From the NCBI RefSeq assembly GCF_007859945.1, contig NZ_SJPQ01000001.1, forward strand, positions 1,550,001-1,614,000: DNA of 64,000 bases, given 5' to 3'. Position 1 is the stretch's first letter; the number at the start of each line of letters is the position of its first letter. This document shows positions 55,195 through 63,922 of this stretch, piece by piece. The notes under the pieces were generated by a model. It searched no databases and had not been told where the DNA came from. It saw nothing but the letters and a program-made list of their open reading frames with translations. Origin of the DNA: Pseudobythopirellula maris. Lineage in GTDB: Bacteria; Planctomycetota; Planctomycetia; Pirellulales; Lacipirellulaceae. A program made the translations under genes and the position numbers.

Positions 55195-55569
55195 ATGACC
55201 AGCCCCAACCCGGTCAACTGGTTCGAGATCCCCGCCGCCGACCTGTCGCGCGCCGTCGATTTTTACGAAGCGACTCTCGGTGTAAAGCTCTCCATCATGG
55301 AGTTAGGCGCCGCCAAAATGGCGATGTTTGAAAGGGACCCCGAGGGCCATGGCGCCGCCGGCTCGTTGATCCAGAACGAGGCCTACACGCCTTCGCACGA
55401 AGGCACGCTGGTTTACTTCCATGTCGACGACATCGAAGCGACCCTCGCCCGCGCCGAAGCGGCTGGGGGCATGACGCTGCGGCCGAAGATGGCGATCGGC
55501 GAGCACGGCTTCGTCGGCCATTTCGAAGACACCGAGGGGAACCGCGTGGCGCTCCACGCGATGCAGTAA
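55195..55569 (+). CDS. VOC (glyoxalase/bleomycin-resistance-like) protein
   Basis: A 124-residue VOC-superfamily protein: NWFEIPAADLSRAVDFYEATLG at the start, then YFHVDDIEATLARAEAAGGM and GHFEDTEGNRVALH. VOC folds bind a divalent metal in a paired beta-alpha module; the reaction is unknown. It is the first gene of a tight three-gene unit; its stop and the ArsR start overlap (TAATG). Confidence 0.88.
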   Translation: MTSPNPVNWFEIPAADLSRAVDFYEATLGVKLSIMELGAAKMAMFERDPEGHGAAGSLIQNEAYTPSHEGTLVYFHVDDIEATLARAEAAGGMTLRPKMAIGEHGFVGHFEDTEGNRVALHAMQ

Positions 55570-55898
55570 TGCCAAGCCCCTCCGAGACGCAGCTCGACGT
55601 GGTGTTCACCGCCTTGGGCGACCCGACACGACGGGCGTTGCTCGCCAGCTTGTCCCGCAGCGAGCAAACCGTCTCGCAGTTGGCCGAGCCGTTCGACATG
55701 ACCCTGGCGGCGGTGTCGAAGCACCTCAAAGTGCTCGAACGCGCAGGCTTGGTCGCCCGCACCATCGAGGGACGCGTCCACACGCTGCGGCTCGAGGCCG
55801 AACCGCTGAGCGAAGCCAACCGCTGGATCGCAGCCTACCAGCGTTTCTGGGGCGCCAGCCTCGATTCGCTTGGCGAGTTTCTTAAAGAAGATGCTTGA
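55569..55898 (+). CDS. ArsR-family transcriptional regulator (second copy)
   Basis: A 109-residue winged-helix repressor: ALGDPTRRALLASLSRSEQTVSQLAEPFDMTLAAVSKHLKVLERAGLV, then RTIEGRVHTLRLE. It has no metal-binding Cys motif. Its organisation, overlapping a VOC gene upstream and an SRPBCC gene 24 bases downstream, parallels the first ArsR unit. Confidence 0.93.
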   Translation: MPSPSETQLDVVFTALGDPTRRALLASLSRSEQTVSQLAEPFDMTLAAVSKHLKVLERAGLVARTIEGRVHTLRLEAEPLSEANRWIAAYQRFWGASLDSLGEFLKEDA

Positions 55899-55921
55899 TC
55901 CGTCCAGCACAGGACCTGGCG

Positions 55922-56398
55922 ATGGTAAGAGAGGCCCAAGAAAACGACCCCACCGTGCTTGTTCTACGGCGCAGCTACACGGCGCCGCGCGAGCGGGTGT
56001 TTCGGGCGTGGACCGATCCCGAGCAAATCTCGCTTTGGTTGCGTCCCACTCCGGAGATCAAGATCGAACGGGCCGAGTCCGATCCGCGTGTCGGTGGCGC
56101 GTACAAGATCACCTACCTCGTCCCCAACGATCCGGACCCGAAGATCATCGAGGGCGAGTACGTCGAGTTCGATCGGCCGGCAAGGCTGGCATTCACGTGG
56201 GTGTGGCGCCCACCCCACGAGTACGCCGGTGAGCTGACCCAGGTCACGGTCGAGCTGACCGAGCGAGACGGGCAGACGGACTTGGTGCTCACGCACGAAC
56301 GCTTCCCGGCGGAGGCGATGCGCGACCACCACGCCTGGGGCTGGACCGGGGCAATCGACGCCCTCGACGAGCATCTGCAAGGCGTCGGCGACGAGTGA
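55922..56398 (+). CDS. SRPBCC/AHSA1-type protein (second copy)
   Basis: A 158-residue START-fold protein: RRSYTAPRERVFRAWTDPEQISLWL, LRPT-type strand, then GGAYKITYLVP, EYVEFDRPARLAFTWVW and GWTGAIDALDEHL. I prefer ATG at 55922; a TTG at 55895 overlaps the ArsR stop. It is paralogous to the 3355-3837 protein in family but only distantly similar in sequence. Confidence 0.88.
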   Translation: MVREAQENDPTVLVLRRSYTAPRERVFRAWTDPEQISLWLRPTPEIKIERAESDPRVGGAYKITYLVPNDPDPKIIEGEYVEFDRPARLAFTWVWRPPHEYAGELTQVTVELTERDGQTDLVLTHERFPAEAMRDHHAWGWTGAIDALDEHLQGVGDE

Positions 56399-57553: not shown

Positions 57554-57904
57554 GTGGCATCGCCTTCCGCCCATCGGTATGATGTCGACGAATCGATTAC
57601 GGCGCGGGAGCGTGTCGAAGCCCTTATTCACATGCTTTTACAAGGGAGAGTAGCTATGGCGTGGCTTTTCGAACGCACAATCGAAGCGGCAGCTTGGGTC
57701 GCAATGCTCGTGGCTTGGCTCTGTTTAGGAACGGCCATCTACCGGTGCAGTTTGTGGATAGGCACAATTCAAACCGAACCCGACTTCAGTTTATTGCGCG
57801 ACGCCGCAATGTCGTCGGCCGCCTTTTTGGCCGCCGCCGTGGCGTTGGGACTGTTGGCGTGTGTCGATCGATTCCTTTTCGACGCCGATGAACACGCCGC
57901 CTGA
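57554..57904 (+). CDS. Small hypothetical membrane protein
   Basis: A 116-residue protein with a GTG start and two membrane segments (about 43-63 and 87-105). The loop between them is polar. No family is recognised. The codon use and membrane pattern support a real gene but homology would be needed. Confidence 0.5.
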   Translation: MASPSAHRYDVDESITARERVEALIHMLLQGRVAMAWLFERTIEAAAWVAMLVAWLCLGTAIYRCSLWIGTIQTEPDFSLLRDAAMSSAAFLAAAVALGLLACVDRFLFDADEHAA

Positions 57905-57990
57905 GCCTCCAACCTCTCTGTAACGCTTAACAACCGACCGGACGTGCGCAGTCCCGTATGCATTGATGCGGTCTTCTGTGTGGCGCGCAT

Positions 57991-58027
57991 AAAAAGAGCC
58001 GCCGAACTGCGGGAAGCTCGACGGCCC
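57991..58027 (-). terminator. Intrinsic terminator on the minus strand
   Basis: Reading the minus strand, GCCGTCGA (58025-58018) pairs with TCGGCGGC (58005-57998, one mismatch), followed by CTC, five T's and ATGCGC. The trailing TTATGCGC also follows the terminator of the candidate RNA at 14596. Confidence 0.6.
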
Positions 58028-58045
58028 AAAGGGACTGAAACGCTG

Positions 58046-58171
58046 TCAAATGCAAAAGCAGCCAGGACGGAGGTGAGGCGAAGGAGTCCGCCGCTGGCTG
58101 AGACAGAACTTAAGCAACGCCTGTGCCAAGTCATTCGCCGCACTCCCGCCCACCAAGAAACAGTATGCCAC
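58046..58171 (-). CDS. Possible 41-residue small protein
   Basis: GTG start at 58171, TGA at 58046. The product begins VAYCFLVGGSAANDLAQALL and contains four Cys. A terminator follows 19 bases later on the same strand. GGTGAG is adjacent to the start, closer than a normal Shine-Dalgarno. It could instead be part of a non-coding transcript. Confidence 0.3.
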   Translation of the reverse strand: MAYCFLVGGSAANDLAQALLKFCLSQRRTPSPHLRPGCFCI

Positions 58172-58555
58172 CTCACCAAACCGCGAGCTTCAGGGCATCG
58201 ATGTCGGATTGGCGCTAGCAAGGAAGGCGAGCCGTTTTGAAAAACTTACTCCTCCCTTTTGTCGTATTGTCAAAACAACGCAGCTCATCGGCAGTCAGCC
58301 TTCCCTGCCAGCAACGTTAGCAGCTCCCATCGGAGGCGTTATCCAGTTCAAGCTGCTTGGCTTGGGCCTCTACACGGGCAGTTGGCGCGCACTCGGGCGA
58401 CGATCTGGGCCGTAGGGCGCCAGTGACAGGACGCCAGCAGTCCTGCTACCGTGTGTGGTTCACCGCGATGCGGCCTTGCCCGCTGCTTGCGATTCCCGCT
58501 GAACGATCGACTCCTTACCCGCCGCAAGCCCCGCCCTCCCCCCTGCCGCTAAGCC

Positions 58556-59245
58556 ATGCTGCTGCTCGAAGGAGTCAAAAAGTCTTACCGTGAGCCAGAC
58601 GGGTCCGAGCTGCCGATCCTTGATATCCCCCGCTTCGCGGTCGACGAGGGCGAGCAAGTCGTGATCCGCGGCCGCAGCGGCTGCGGCAAAACGACGATGC
58701 TCAACACGATCGCCGGCCTGACGACCGTCGACGCAGGCTCGGTCTCCGTCAAAGGGGTTGAGCTCACCCGCCTCACGGAGGCGGGCCGCGACCGATTCAG
58801 GGCGCGACAGATCGGCTACGTGTTCCAAACCTTCAACCTGCTGGCGGCGTTCTCCGCGCTTGAAAACGTGATGCTCGGCATGACGTTTACCGGCCAAACA
58901 CGCGACGCCGCCCGGGCGCGCGACCTGCTGGATCGGGTCGGCCTCGGCCACCGGATGCACCACAAACCCGCAGCCATGTCGGTCGGCGAGCAACAGCGGA
59001 CCGCCGTGGCCCGCGCCTTGGCGAACAAGCCGGTACTGCTGCTGGCCGACGAGCCGACGGCCAATATCGATCCCTCGAATCAGCAGCAGGTGATCGACCT
59101 GCTGCGGACCGTTTGCGAGGAGGAAAAGGTGGCGATGCTCCTGGTGACGCACAGCCCCGAAGTCTCGGGGCAATTCGGCCGCGTCGAGCCGCTCGAAGAG
59201 ATCAATCGCGTGATGGCTCAAGCCACAATGACGAAGCCTCTATGA
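58556..59245 (+). CDS. ABC transporter ATP-binding protein (LolD/MacB type)
   Basis: A 229-residue ATPase. Walker A is GRSGCGKTT (39-47); Q-loop in YVFQTFNLL; the signature is variant, MSVGEQQRTAVARAL (VGEQQ for SGGQ); Walker B LLLADEPTANID. The short length and FNLLAAFSALENVMLG match LolD/FtsE/MacB-type ATPases. It precedes an FtsX-like permease by 100 bases and probably powers lipoprotein or substrate extraction at the inner membrane. Confidence 0.92.
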   Translation: MLLLEGVKKSYREPDGSELPILDIPRFAVDEGEQVVIRGRSGCGKTTMLNTIAGLTTVDAGSVSVKGVELTRLTEAGRDRFRARQIGYVFQTFNLLAAFSALENVMLGMTFTGQTRDAARARDLLDRVGLGHRMHHKPAAMSVGEQQRTAVARALANKPVLLLADEPTANIDPSNQQQVIDLLRTVCEEEKVAMLLVTHSPEVSGQFGRVEPLEEINRVMAQATMTKPL

Positions 59246-59346
59246 CCAATGCTTGCCAGCCAGCTCGATGGGTCATCGGGCTTGGTTATTGGTCGTTCCG
59301 CACAATATGATTCTCCCCCTCGCCCTCAACGCTTTGCACTGACCGA

Positions 59347-60729
59347 ATGAGTTTCTGGAAGATCGCCTGGCGAAACATGCAGCAGCGGGGACTCGCCTCG
59401 TCGCTCACTGCTTTGTCGATGGCCTTGGGCGTGGCGGCTATGGTCGGGGTGATCGTTATTCACTCGGTCACGGTCCGCCAGTTCCAGCAGTCGGCCCACG
59501 GGTACAACCTGATCGTCGGCGGCAAGGGCGGCGCGTTGCAGTTGGTGCTCAGCACGGTCTACCACCTGGGCCAACCGCTCTACCCGATCTCGTACGACTA
59601 CTACCGGAAATTCGTTGACGGCGAGTTCGCCAGCGTGACCGACGTGGCGATCCCCTACTGTTTGGGCGACAGCTTCGACCCGTCCAACGGCGAGGACGAG
59701 CGGGGGCTGATGTACCGCGTGGTGGCCACCACGCCCGACCTGTTCAACAAGCTCAACTACGGTATCGAGCGCGACGGCACGTTCAAGCGGTACGAGTTCA
59801 GTGAGGGTCGCAACTTTCTGGTCCAGAACGCCTACGAGGCGGTGGTCGGCTCGGTCGTCGCGGCTCAGGCCGACCTGCACGAGGGAGACACCATCCAGCC
59901 GACCCACGGCGTGAGTGGCGACGGCGAGGTGCACATCGGCTTCAAGGTGGTCGGCGTGCTCGAGCCGACCGGCACGGCCAACGACCGCGCCGTGTTCGTC
60001 AACCTGGAGGGTTTCTTCCAGATCGACGACCACGCCTTGGGCGAGCCGGCCGAAGGAGTCGCCAGCGAGCCGCTTCCCGAGACCTCGCGCATCGACGAGC
60101 CCCGCGGCGCCCTGCCGCCGGCGAAGCTGTTCGACAACCAGGGCGCCGAGATCGAGCCGCTGCCGATGTCCCAACGCGAGGTGACCTCGATCCTGGTCGC
60201 CACGAGCAACGCGTTCGGCTCGATGGCGCTCAGCTCACGGATCAACAAGGATGGCGACACCGTCGCCCAGGCGGTGGCGCCGATCGGCGTGATCGAGTCG
60301 CTCCTGAACGCCATCGTCAAACCGGTGCAGATCGTGCTGCTGGTGATGACGGTCCTGATCGTCGTGGTCGCCTCGATCAGCATCCTGGTGAGCATCTACA
60401 ACTCGATGAGCGAACGGAGCCACGACATCGCCGTGATGCGCGCCTTGGGCGCCAGCCGCTCGGCCGTGATGCTGGTGGTGCTCAGCGAGTCGGTGTTGCT
60501 CTCGCTCACCGGCGGGCTATTGGGGATCGTGCTGGGGCACGCGATGGTCGGTCTGGCGGCGCCCTACGTCGAGGCCCAAACCGGCGTGCGGCTCAACGCC
60601 CTGGCGTTCGACCCCTGGGAAGCGGCCGTTATCCCCGCCCTGGTCGCTCTGGCGGCGCTGGTGGGGCTGCTGCCCGCCATCTCGGCCTACCGCACTGATG
60701 TGGCCAAAGCGCTACAGGGCGCCCGCTGA
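59347..60729 (+). CDS. ABC transporter permease, FtsX/MacB type
   Basis: A 460-residue permease with an N-terminal membrane helix (about 20-42), a large periplasmic domain (about 45-310), and three C-terminal helices (about 320-350, 365-395 and 425-448). The start MSFWKIAWRNMQQRGLASSLT and the late MSERSHDIAVMRALGASR are signatures of MacB/FtsX permeases. The periplasmic domain is large and specific. It pairs with the ATPase upstream. Confidence 0.9.
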   Translation: MSFWKIAWRNMQQRGLASSLTALSMALGVAAMVGVIVIHSVTVRQFQQSAHGYNLIVGGKGGALQLVLSTVYHLGQPLYPISYDYYRKFVDGEFASVTDVAIPYCLGDSFDPSNGEDERGLMYRVVATTPDLFNKLNYGIERDGTFKRYEFSEGRNFLVQNAYEAVVGSVVAAQADLHEGDTIQPTHGVSGDGEVHIGFKVVGVLEPTGTANDRAVFVNLEGFFQIDDHALGEPAEGVASEPLPETSRIDEPRGALPPAKLFDNQGAEIEPLPMSQREVTSILVATSNAFGSMALSSRINKDGDTVAQAVAPIGVIESLLNAIVKPVQIVLLVMTVLIVVVASISILVSIYNSMSERSHDIAVMRALGASRSAVMLVVLSESVLLSLTGGLLGIVLGHAMVGLAAPYVEAQTGVRLNALAFDPWEAAVIPALVALAALVGLLPAISAYRTDVAKALQGAR

Positions 60730-60892
60730 TCGCCTTGCGTTCAATCGAGATCGCATCGCCCGGTCTCCTGCGATTCGGAGCGGGGTATCGGCGTGTCCCG
60801 CTGAAGGTTTCGACGGTAAAATCAGTAGTGAGCCTCCTGCGTTCCCCGCCTCCCTCCACCCGCCTGCGACTAGTTGGCGGATCACGTTTTCC

Positions 60893-62524
60893 ATGACACG
60901 CCCCCGTCCAATCTTCTTGATCGCGTTGGCGGCCCTGCTGGCCACGGCCGGCATGGTCCGCGCTTGTCCGTTCTGCGTCGCCGAGAACCGCACGCTCAGC
61001 GAGGAGATAGCCGACAGCAGCGTGGTGCTGATCGGCTCGCTCGTGGTCGACGAGGACGCCCGCCCCGACGACCCCACGCTCGGCGGCGTGCTCAACCCTC
61101 AAGACGGCACGGCGCGGTTCCGCGTCGAGCAGGTGCTCACCGGTGAAACGCTGCTCGGCGACGAGGAGCAGATCGAGGCGATCTACTTCGGCGACCCCCA
61201 ACAAGACGTGGCGTACCTGCTGCGTGGCGTCGGCGAGCCGCCCGAGTGGAACATCCCGCTGCCGCTCAGCGACGAGGCGGTCGCCTACGTCCCCAAACTG
61301 ATCGGGCTGCCGGAAAGCGGCGCCGACCGAATGGCGTTCTTCCAGGACTACTTGGAGCACAGCGACTCGCTGCTGGCCCAAGACGCCTACGACGAATTCG
61401 CCCGCGCCCCTTACAGCGACGTGCAAGACCTGGCCCCCCGGATGGATCCCGAGCAGCTGATGAGCTGGATCGAAGACCCCGCTGTCAGCCCCAGCCGGCG
61501 GCGTCTTTACCTCACGATGCTCGGCGTGTGCGGCGGCAAGGAAGACGCCCGACGCATCGAGCGGCTGCTGCTCTCCGACAGCCGAACCCTCAAACCGGCC
61601 GCCCGCGTCACGGTCGACGCGGCAGTCGCAGCCGGCGCGCCGCTGGCCGCGCCGCTGGCCGCCGACGCGCTACTGTCGGCCGAACGGCAGAACAAGCTCG
61701 GTCTCGACGCGATGATCGCCTGCTACATCACGCTCAGCGGCAAGGCGGGCGAGGGCGAGCGGGCGATGGACCTGATCGACCGCCGTTTCCTCGCCGACCA
61801 GCAAGGCGACTACTCGCACGTCTACTCCACGCTCATGGCGCTGCGTTTCCTGGCCGAGGAAAGCGACGCCGTGCCCCGCGAACGCGTTCTCGTCTCGGCC
61901 CGGCTGCTGTTGGGCAGCACCGACTTCGCCGACCAGGTGATTCCCGACCTGGCCCGCTGGGAGGATTGGTCGGTCTTGGACCGTTTGGAAGCGATGTACA
62001 TCGACCCCGAAGCCGAGGGGGTGCAGCAATACGTCCGCGAGCCGATCGTCGCGTACCTCGACGTGGCCGCCGAGCGCGGCGGCGAGCTCGGCGAACGCGC
62101 TACCGCGGCGCTCGCCCGGATCGAGCCGGTCGACGAAAAGGCGTTCAAGCGGGCCCGCAGCCTGCGGGCGTTCGGCTTTTTGGCCCAGGCCCGGCCCGCG
62201 CGCGACCCGTTGGAGAACGGCGTGCGTAGTGGTGAGGAGGCGGTCGCCGATCAACTGGCGGCCCAGGAGGGCCCCTCCGAATCGTCCCCGTCGGTCCCCC
62301 CCCTGCCCCAAGCGTCTGAGCCTACGGCGGCAACGCCCTCCGCCGACGAAACGCCCGGCCCGGCGAGGGTGGTCGCCGAAACGGTGGCCGACGAGCCGCA
62401 GACGATCGAGCAAACCGCCCCGCTGACGCCGCCAAGCCGTTTTGTGCTGCTCGCCACGCCATTGGTTGCCGGAGCGATCTGTCTCGGACTATTCTGGATT
62501 ATCCTCCGCGGGGGCGTCGCTTGA
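60893..62524 (+). CDS. Envelope protein with CxxC motif and C-terminal anchor
   Basis: A 543-residue protein with a signal peptide ending at about 23 (MVRA-CPFC), then CPFCVAENRTLSEEI with a CxxC, a beta-rich domain (RFRVEQVLTGETLLG, about 60-110) similar in order to TIMP-like/OB folds, and a long helical solenoid (about 160-420, HEAT-like spacing). A Pro/Ser/Thr linker (about 440-520) precedes a membrane anchor (VLLATPLVAGAICLGLFWII). Such proteins are frequent in planctomycetes and uncharacterised. It follows the permease and precedes the two CCFGP proteins. Confidence 0.75.
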   Translation: MTRPRPIFLIALAALLATAGMVRACPFCVAENRTLSEEIADSSVVLIGSLVVDEDARPDDPTLGGVLNPQDGTARFRVEQVLTGETLLGDEEQIEAIYFGDPQQDVAYLLRGVGEPPEWNIPLPLSDEAVAYVPKLIGLPESGADRMAFFQDYLEHSDSLLAQDAYDEFARAPYSDVQDLAPRMDPEQLMSWIEDPAVSPSRRRLYLTMLGVCGGKEDARRIERLLLSDSRTLKPAARVTVDAAVAAGAPLAAPLAADALLSAERQNKLGLDAMIACYITLSGKAGEGERAMDLIDRRFLADQQGDYSHVYSTLMALRFLAEESDAVPRERVLVSARLLLGSTDFADQVIPDLARWEDWSVLDRLEAMYIDPEAEGVQQYVREPIVAYLDVAAERGGELGERATAALARIEPVDEKAFKRARSLRAFGFLAQARPARDPLENGVRSGEEAVADQLAAQEGPSESSPSVPPLPQASEPTAATPSADETPGPARVVAETVADEPQTIEQTAPLTPPSRFVLLATPLVAGAICLGLFWIILRGGVA

Positions 62525-62582
62525 GCCCGCTGAGGCCGCGACTTCCCCACCTCCCCCCTCGCCGACTCGTCAGAACCTACCG

Positions 62583-63311
62583 ATGCCGACCGAAGCCATT
62601 GCCGACGCCCCGTCCGTCGGGGCCACGAGCGAAGACGACTCGCTCGCCTATCGCTCGATCCCCGCCACGGCGATCATGGGGCTGCTGATTTCTTTGTTGG
62701 GCGTGGTGGCGCCGATCTCCTCGGGCGGGAATTTCAACACGGCGTTGATGTTGGCCCCGATCCCGCTCGCCGGGCTGCTTTTCTCGCTCTCGGCCCTGTC
62801 GACGATCCGTCACGCGCCCGAACTGTACACCGGCGGCAAGATCGCCGGCGCCGGCGCCGCCCTCTCGGTGCTGTTCCTCGTGACGAGCCTCGGCTACGGC
62901 GGCTACGTCTACGCCACCGAGACGCCCGACGGCTACGAGCGGATCAGCTTCATCGACATGAAGCCGACCGAAGCGGAAGAGGTGAACCGCACTCCCATAC
63001 CGCCCGACATCCTTGAGCTGATGAAGAATGAGCAGAAGGTGTTTATCAAGGGCTACATCCGGCCCGACACGATCCAATACCACGAGAACATCAGCGACTT
63101 CTTGCTGGTCCGCGACAACTTGCAGTGCTGCTTCGGCCCGATGGCGAAAGTGTACTACTTCGACCAGATCCAGGTGAAGCTCGACCCTGGCATGACGACC
63201 GATTACCACACCGGTTTGTTCAGGCTCGGCGGCCTGCTCAAAGTCGGCCCCGGCGACCCCGAGAGCAACACGCCGCTCACATTCCACATGCAAGCCGACT
63301 ACGTCAAGTAA
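62583..63311 (+). CDS. Membrane protein with CCFGP domain
   Basis: A 242-residue protein. Three membrane segments (about 29-48, 52-72, 86-108) are followed by a C-terminal periplasmic domain: FIKGYIRPD, DFLLVRDNLQCCFGPMAKVYYFDQIQVKL and a closing LTFHMQADYVK. The CCFGP motif and surrounding strands are shared with the next gene. The Cys pair suggests metal or redox chemistry, unproven. It lies 58 bases after the CxxC protein in the same direction. Confidence 0.72.
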   Translation: MPTEAIADAPSVGATSEDDSLAYRSIPATAIMGLLISLLGVVAPISSGGNFNTALMLAPIPLAGLLFSLSALSTIRHAPELYTGGKIAGAGAALSVLFLVTSLGYGGYVYATETPDGYERISFIDMKPTEAEEVNRTPIPPDILELMKNEQKVFIKGYIRPDTIQYHENISDFLLVRDNLQCCFGPMAKVYYFDQIQVKLDPGMTTDYHTGLFRLGGLLKVGPGDPESNTPLTFHMQADYVK

Positions 63312-63340
63312 GTCTTACCGCTGCTTTAGTCCGGGGTGAC

Positions 63341-63922
63341 GTGCACAAGCGACGATACCATGCACCGCCGAGCCCGCGTCCGTGCGCCCGCTTGCGGCTG
63401 AGCTTTTGCATCGGCTTGCTTTGCGCCGGCTGCGGCGAGGCGCCGCCCGAGATCGCCGCCGACGCGGCGAGCGAGACGGCGGTGCAAGACGCCGCCGCCG
63501 AAGATCGCGCCGCCGAAAGGCCTGCGGCCGCCGGCCCGGAGCACGACTCCGACCGCTTGCTCGACAAAACCTTCGACGACCTGGTGTTCGACATCGAGCC
63601 CGACGAGCCTTTCGAGCGGTCGATGATCACCCCCGAGGTCGAGGCGTTGGCCGGGCGCCGGGTCCGTTTGCGGGGCTACATCTACCCCACGATGCAGAAG
63701 CACCACCTCAAGCAGTTCGTGTTGGTGCGCGACAACCAGGAGTGCTGCTTCGGCCCCGGCGCCGCGCTCTACGACTGCGTGCTGGTCGAGATGGCCCCCG
63801 GCAAGACGGCCAGCTACGGGATCCGCCCGGTCGCGGTCGAGGGGCGGCTGCGCATCGAGCCGCTCACGTTCGACGGCAAGACGCTCGGCGTCTTCCAGAT
63901 GATCGCCGACTCGGTGGATTGA
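63341..63922 (+). CDS. Lipoprotein with CCFGP domain
   Basis: A 193-residue protein with a GTG start at 63341, a basic N-terminus, hydrophobic core LSFCIGLLCAGC and candidate lipobox Cys31. A low-complexity Ala/Glu/Pro linker (about 35-75) leads to the CCFGP domain: RVRLRGYIYP, FVLVRDNQECCFGPGAALYDCVLVEM and LGVFQMIADSVD. It starts 29 bases after the preceding CCFGP gene, which strongly suggests a common operon. Confidence 0.72.
   Translation: MHKRRYHAPPSPRPCARLRLSFCIGLLCAGCGEAPPEIAADAASETAVQDAAAEDRAAERPAAAGPEHDSDRLLDKTFDDLVFDIEPDEPFERSMITPEVEALAGRRVRLRGYIYPTMQKHHLKQFVLVRDNQECCFGPGAALYDCVLVEMAPGKTASYGIRPVAVEGRLRIEPLTFDGKTLGVFQMIADSVD

Follow-up and report, generated by a model that had tools for sequence, protein, structure and literature searches.

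We analysed a stretch of 64,000 nucleotides from Pseudobythopirellula maris (a planctomycete of the family Lacipirellulaceae; assembly GCF_007859945.1, contig NZ_SJPQ01000001.1, positions 1,550,001 to 1,614,000 of the forward strand), here called the window. The subject is a set of five co-directional genes at 58556-63922, which make up one operon. They encode an ATP-binding cassette (ABC) ATPase, a permease, a periplasmic protein with a CPFC motif and HEAT-like repeats, and two proteins with the motif Cys-Cys-Phe-Gly-Pro (CCFGP). An earlier reading of the same letters, made without database searches, had called this an uncharacterised exporter operon; since the permease is related to ZrgB/PA4065, and the CCFGP proteins to ZrgE/PA4066, the operon is not wholly uncharacterised. 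The five-gene cluster itself was placed correctly, in coordinates and in strand. The features are as follows.

57905..58555, + strand: upstream intergenic region, without a TTGCAANTNATTTGCAA-type box (box scans of the window and of 400 bases upstream)
58556..59245, + strand: gene 1, ABC ATPase with signature MSVGEQQR (PF00005, ABC_tran), a ZrgC/PA4064 relative by operon context
59347..60729, + strand: gene 2, permease with MacB_PCD and FtsX, a ZrgB/PA4065 relative (Pfam, profile scores, residues)
60893..62524, + strand: gene 3, membrane-anchored periplasmic CPFC-HEAT protein as predicted from alignments, model, HEAT_2 and hydropathy
62583..63311, + strand: gene 4, multi-pass DUF4190-like protein with a C-terminal predicted DUF3299 OB domain and CCFGP (model, 4hsp match)
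63126..63140, + strand: Cys-Cys-Phe-Gly-Pro codons of gene 4, Cys182-Cys183 (DNA pattern, genome 1613126-1613139)
63341..63922, + strand: gene 5, secreted DUF3299 protein with CCFGP, possibly a lipoprotein in this genome (PF11736, paralogy; GTG start inferred)
63743..63757, + strand: Cys-Cys-Phe-Gly-Pro codons of gene 5, Cys135-Cys136 (DNA pattern, genome 1613743-1613756)

From gene 1 to gene 5 the gaps are 101, 163, 58 and 29 bases by coordinates. The ATPase matches ABC_tran with 111.4 bits (cut-off 25), and the permease matches both FtsX (58.8 bits, cut-off 25.5) and MacB_PCD (50.2 bits, cut-off 27), which bears out the MacB/LolD-type superfamily assigned to the pair. LolD is the best NCBIfam name for the ATPase, yet its 189.2 bits stay below the LolD cut-off of 307.75. 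LolCE (34.4 bits, cut-off 362.45) and MacB (133.4 and 33.9 bits, cut-off 966) are also missed, and ATPase and permease are two genes. The original prediction took VGEQQ for a variant ATPase signature. It is the normal form here: S-[VI]-G-[EQ]-QQR occurs in 116 of 118 ATPase sequences, and the ATPases of three proteobacterial operons read LS[VI]GQQQR.

The permease was compared with more distant relatives through a profile built from 15 planctomycete permeases. This profile scores 280.9 bits on the permease of Phaeobacter inhibens DSM 17395, 268.0 on that of Sulfitobacter sp. S190 and 255.1 on that of Catenovulum adriaticum; the remaining MacB_PCD permeases that P. maris encodes score 29-54 bits (maximum 53.7). 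All three proteobacterial permeases adjoin DUF3299, and the first two also adjoin DUF2796/ZrgA, confirmed by Pfam. The Phaeobacter operon, on pPGA1_262, holds a Fur-family gene as well, and in Sulfitobacter two DUF3299 genes stand side by side next to ZrgA (L199 6139-7139), which means that DUF3299 pairing is not restricted to planctomycetes. The comparison reaches ZrgB and PA4065 through these three permeases, the ZrgB and PA4065 sequences themselves not being part of it. On these sequence scores we are nearly certain that the permease is Zrg-type, of the ZrgB/PA4065 subfamily, and we regard the assignment of permease and DUF3299 to their families as firm.

Four residues of the periplasmic domain stand out in this subfamily. 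Asp108, His187 and Asp213 are found in all 35 aligned permeases, planctomycete and proteobacterial, and His229 in 33. We then counted 157 distinct permease sequences wherever the column was covered (17 end early at locus ends and miss at least one column). Asp213 was present in 151/151, His187 in 142/150, His229 in 142/151 and Asp108 in 131/140, where the replacements were six His, two Gly and one Glu. Seven of the nine exceptions at His229 were inspected, and each has a His no more than three residues away. Seven MacB-type paralogues of the P. maris genome have none of the four letters at the aligned columns, in a comparison of eight rows, one of them a truncated copy, where sequences this distant can be aligned only roughly; one paralogue (L225) has His at the Asp108 position. 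Histidine-rich runs occur in the periplasmic part of 7/35 permeases (L041, L043, L047, L051, L098, L100, L113). We propose that the Asp/His cluster may form a transition-metal site. The conservation of the four residues is a new observation, as is the DUF3299 motif with its invariant first Cys, in the forms CC, CxH and CxxC; in the 2024 paper on Pseudomonas the words histidine, aspartate, conserved residue and binding site are absent from the main text.

The two CCFGP proteins are paralogues, as had been suggested, with 37% identity over 118 residues of the CCFGP domain (E 2e-17). Gene 5 matches PF11736 (DUF3299) with 28.2 bits, above the cut-off of 22. The window copy of gene 4 matches neither DUF4190 nor DUF3299 at E 0.01, DUF4190 reaching only E 0.055; among the 36 members of its alignment, 29 match DUF4190 and 21 match DUF3299 at that threshold. 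Three hydropathy peaks and the DUF4190 matches of its relatives support the multi-pass topology proposed for it. An AlphaFold model of gene 4 from 36 sequences reached a mean predicted local distance difference test (pLDDT) score of 90.0. In a Foldseek search with this model the sole PDB match below E 0.001 was 4hsp, PA4066 of Pseudomonas aeruginosa (E 2.3e-5). VIA also ranks 4hsp first (Z 9.9, root-mean-square deviation 3.1, 111 residues), and its next rows, at Z 8.0, are MCM and other oligonucleotide/oligosaccharide-binding (OB) folds. The gene 5 profile matches 4hsp by sequence (E 4.1e-5). The CCFGP domain is DUF3299, with an OB fold according to the model.

All 162 distinct DUF3299 domains, counted with a profile seeded from the same families, have the first Cys of the motif. 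The motif is CC in 144, CxxC in 10, CxH in 6 and another form in two, one a CC shifted by one residue and one a CxC. Such exchange of Cys and His would be typical of metal ligands. A DNA pattern for CCFGP has two matches in the 5.07 Mb genome, in genes 4 and 5, but its backward control has four. The count alone therefore carries no meaning, and we dropped it as evidence of rarity. Gene 5 had been called a lipoprotein. In P. maris it may be one, with a weak lipobox (LCAGC), but the anchor is not conserved, as on reading no lipobox is visible in several relatives. The idea of a relay across the envelope is for this reason only partly supported. Having a CCFGP domain at either membrane is not a conserved arrangement, since in 12 of 80 loci described below there is also just a single DUF3299 gene.

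Gene 3 encodes a signal peptide, an ACPFC motif, a small beta domain, a HEAT-like solenoid and a C-terminal hydrophobic segment. Ala24, Cys25, Pro26 and Cys28 are present in at least 90% of 31 sequences. The window copy has no Pfam match at E 0.001. HEAT_2 is matched by 8 of the 31 relatives, and the AlphaFold model (pLDDT 83.2) agrees with the solenoid that had been predicted. The protein had been called secreted; by hydropathy its C-terminal segment resembles a membrane anchor. We also considered a TIMP-like beta domain with an N-terminal Cys ligand and rejected it: a 15-sequence profile gave a best PDB match of E 0.27, with no TIMP among five hits. The fold search with the whole model was dominated by the solenoid and so says little about the beta domain. 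We infer that the protein may act as a scaffold or docking partner.

The cluster is kept in relatives, and the known pathway to which its CCFGP proteins belong is a related one. The permease was found in 42 of 43 genomes of the family (28/28 of good quality) and the CCFGP profile in 41 (28/28 of good quality), in at least two places in 39. PF11736, a model that misses gene 4, has matches in 96 of 392 genomes from the phylum. From the 42 family genomes with the permease, 20 loci were fetched, and in 16 of them all five genes stand in the same order and on the same strand. Two of the other loci have the first three genes (L080, L081), one has the first two (L082) and one meets a contig end (L083); the genomes of L080-L082 (G431-G433) have the CCFGP pair elsewhere. 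Loci of the same taxonomic order chosen by their DUF3299 match hold the full set in 7/8 cases, and 4 of 9 loci of the same class carry, in a different gene order, the ATPase, the permease, the CCFGP pair and copies of the CPFC gene. The permease also led to 80 named loci: a CPFC gene together with two or three DUF3299 genes occurs in 23, two DUF3299 genes in one, a single DUF3299 gene in 12 and the CPFC gene only in two, and the remaining 42 have neither. These counts make the ATPase-permease pair the core, with the other genes as frequent partners. ZrgA (PF10986) has no match among the operon proteins and none in the 43 family genomes; the model does match the proteins of Phaeobacter and Sulfitobacter, though no control genome gave a match either.

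Some observations concern the surroundings. In five loci of Pirellula/Rubripirellula type (L142, L143, L165, L185, L191) ATPase and permease follow what we take to be an smpB-like gene, and DUF3299 and CPFC genes are not in the stretch. Upstream of the P. maris operon, 57554-57904 encodes a small membrane protein without a Pfam match, and on reading, a similar gene ends directly 5' of the ATPase in one relative (L079). Further upstream, 55195-56398 holds in a row what are presumably a VOC-like protein, an ArsR-type regulator and an SRPBCC-like protein.

In several relatives a palindromic box, TTGCAANTNATTTGCAA, precedes the ATPase. The searched form of the box gave 111 matches in 12 genomes vs 30 for the reversed control, palindromic matches being counted on both strands; in one genome (G333) the control matches exceed the box matches (8 vs 6). 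With at most three mismatches, the box was found in 7 of 12 regions upstream of the operon ATPase in the discovery set (0.00 by shuffle). Twenty loci with box sites were picked by eye. Eight of these are near metal genes, namely cobW (L057, L058, L072), ZIP (L067), FUR (L064, L065, L070) and ArsP_1/MerC (L059), and in the remaining 12 no such gene was recognised. The box is a candidate Zur regulon of Pirellulales and same-class relatives; our literature search found no Zur regulon for planctomycetes. The P. maris genome has two FUR-family genes, no cobW match and one PF01297 binding protein. A PF01297 locus in another genome (G425) was dropped as a footprint of zinc uptake, as the regulator adjacent to it looks like the DtxR/MntR type, which makes manganese as likely as zinc.

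The published accounts of Zrg and PA4063-PA4066 (PMC9817125, PMC11481552, PMC8561739, PMC9820375, PMC4710005) are used here in the parts available to us. According to these, zrgA-E of Vibrio parahaemolyticus, where zrgE is the DUF3299 gene, is induced 76-206 fold in zinc-poor medium, and Vibrio cholerae requires zrgA for zinc-limited growth without znuA. A description of the present operon in planctomycetes was not found in the literature as far as it was searched and available.

We favour, with somewhat better than even confidence, the reading that the operon is a planctomycete variant of the Zrg machine (ZrgBC-ZrgE, PA4064-4066) without ZrgA, which handles a periplasmic transition metal, probably zinc. 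The split MacB-type pair, presumably an ATPase with a permease dimer, would use ATP to move the periplasmic domain of the permease. The cluster of Asp108, His187, Asp213 and His229 in this domain would bind the metal, most likely zinc. Of the two DUF3299 OB-fold proteins, one would be held in a membrane by its DUF4190-like module, and the other would be secreted or carry a lipid anchor. Both would bind the metal through the invariant Cys and a second Cys or His, and would pass it to the permease or receive it from there. The CPFC-HEAT protein could be the scaffold or docking partner that takes the place of ZrgA. Among the ligands first suggested (metal, thiol or lipid), metal is the best-supported class; the only support for lipid or thiol comes from the MacB/Lol fold and the Cys pair.

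Several results weigh against this reading. The box is not seen at the operon under study: the P. maris genome has no match, as it has none to the reversed control, the window has one match with three mismatches far from the operon, and in the 400 bases upstream the best has seven mismatches. We therefore rejected the idea that this operon carries the box of its relatives. Outside the discovery set the box stands upstream in 3/66 of the named set (0.25 by shuffle), 1/17 of the own family (0.05) and 0/18 of more distant classes (0.05). The counts make FUR-family control likely in some lineages; it may or may not extend to P. maris, where no box was found. In 42 of the 80 named loci, several of which meet contig ends, the permease has neither a DUF3299 nor a CPFC gene in the stretch, so the helper genes are not obligatory neighbours. 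We had to reject the idea of a joint change of the DUF3299 motif and the permease residues. Asp108 is replaced solely within a CxxC clade, in 9 of its 13 members: in 6 of 10 CxxC loci (L134, L137, L153, L156, L160, L167, L170, L184, L188, L189) against 0 of 79 CC loci, and in three clade loci without a DUF3299 gene. On permease trees of 85 rows (careful) and 88 rows (quick), CxxC requires a single change and every Asp108 replacement lies within that clade. The change is one lineage, and thus a hint in favour of the metal reading and not statistics. Four of the ten CxxC loci (L134, L184, L188, L189) retain Asp108 and His187, which shows that the link between the two motifs is not strict. In one CC locus His187 is replaced by Cys, and the CxxC of L170 reads CPFC, as in the HEAT protein. 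The published work also gives contrary signals in the parts we could use: knockout of zrgD or zrgE in V. cholerae reportedly had no effect, PA4066 was read as a tetramer with no evident zinc binding, and PA4064/PA4065 were read as a MacB exporter of pyochelin-cobalt.

This last proposal leads to a different view of the operon, as an exporter of a metal chelator or chelate (a metallophore), with DUF3299 proteins aiding periplasmic release. The MacB fold would suit such a function, and in the available account pyochelin and cobalt accumulate in a mutant background lacking PA4065. The Zrg-type operons of Vibrio are described as serving zinc acquisition, however, and the presence of the permease in 42 of 43 family genomes is broader than a single siderophore would suggest. 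On reading the adjoining open reading frames, where no search was made, we recognised no metallophore synthesis gene. We consider metallophore export unlikely. Export by the operon, in whatever form, is one possible direction, on which the published work disagrees.

The cysteines could alternatively be redox centres, with CC, CxxC and CPFC coupling periplasmic thiol/disulfide or oxidant handling to the ABC machine. The motifs are all present, and CPFC aligns with the CPYC of glutaredoxin, though at PDB-profile E values of 0.94-1.3 that are not significant. The six of 162 DUF3299 sequences with CxH are left with one Cys, the CCFGP domain is predicted to be an OB fold, and the known relatives are zinc-regulated as far as the published accounts at hand go, all of which makes a redox function improbable. 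We think equally little of a role in envelope maintenance, in which the pair would extract lipids or lipoproteins like LolCDE, or signal like FtsEX, with DUF3299 and HEAT proteins as carriers or cell-wall adaptors. The FtsX/MacB_PCD permease, the LolD name of the ATPase and the near-universal presence in the family are consistent with it. The LolD and LolCE scores fall well short, as given above, and the Asp/His cluster, which the genome's own MacB-type paralogues lack, and the histidine-rich runs of some relatives also speak against it.

The operon can be compared with several known systems. TIGR03943/DUF1980, whose partner is an ArsP-type permease, resembles DUF3299 in that CC aligns to CC (hhalign E 4.3e-4, probability 34%), and one place (L211, G017) is matched by both models. 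The TIGR03943 scores are 16.2-17.5 bits against a cut-off of 88.8, and 7 of 25 members match weakly (best E 0.0051). The two may belong to one superfamily. With MacB, LolCDE and FtsEX the operon shares the FtsX-like transmembrane core and the MacB_PCD periplasmic domain. It differs from MacB in having ATPase and permease as separate chains, and from all of these in the Asp/His cluster of the permease and in missing the LolD, LolCE and MacB cut-offs. No HlyD/MacA-like gene was recognised in the operon and no MacA/TolC gene among nearby open reading frames, the genome-wide search not having been made. In the PA4063-PA4066 system of P. aeruginosa, PA4066 is the best structural match of the CCFGP domain; 4hsp reads ACIH where the P. 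maris proteins read ECCF, and a counterpart of PA4063 was not found.

Transport of ions across the inner membrane is not known for a MacB fold. A bolder suggestion, possible but on balance doubtful, is that Zrg is a separate class of metal ABC transporter. Its permease, of the MacB mechanotransmission type, would bind the ion directly through the Asp/His cluster of the periplasmic domain, and DUF3299 OB-fold proteins, as metallochaperones with Cys plus Cys/His, would exchange the ion with it. The core would consist of this permease site together with the Cys of DUF3299, and ZrgA would be replaceable. As part of the same tentative scheme, planctomycetes would have the ZrgA-free form, with one membrane-fixed chaperone, one mobile chaperone and a CPFC-HEAT scaffold.

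The role of Zrg with metal is disputed in print, between zinc acquisition in Vibrio and pyochelin-cobalt export in Pseudomonas, in the parts of those accounts that we could draw on. The Asp/His cluster of the permease and the Cys-plus-Cys/His swap of DUF3299 now offer named residues with which the question is directly testable. The operon differs from ZrgABCDE of Vibrio in having a pair of DUF3299 proteins, of which one has a membrane module, and a CPFC-HEAT protein, and in that neither ZrgA nor the box was found in this genome. It shares with ZrgABCDE a split MacB-type ATPase and permease and a DUF3299 protein in a single operon; some of its planctomycete relatives also have a FUR-type box in front of the operon. 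The planctomycete form suggests that ZrgA lies outside the core that these systems share.

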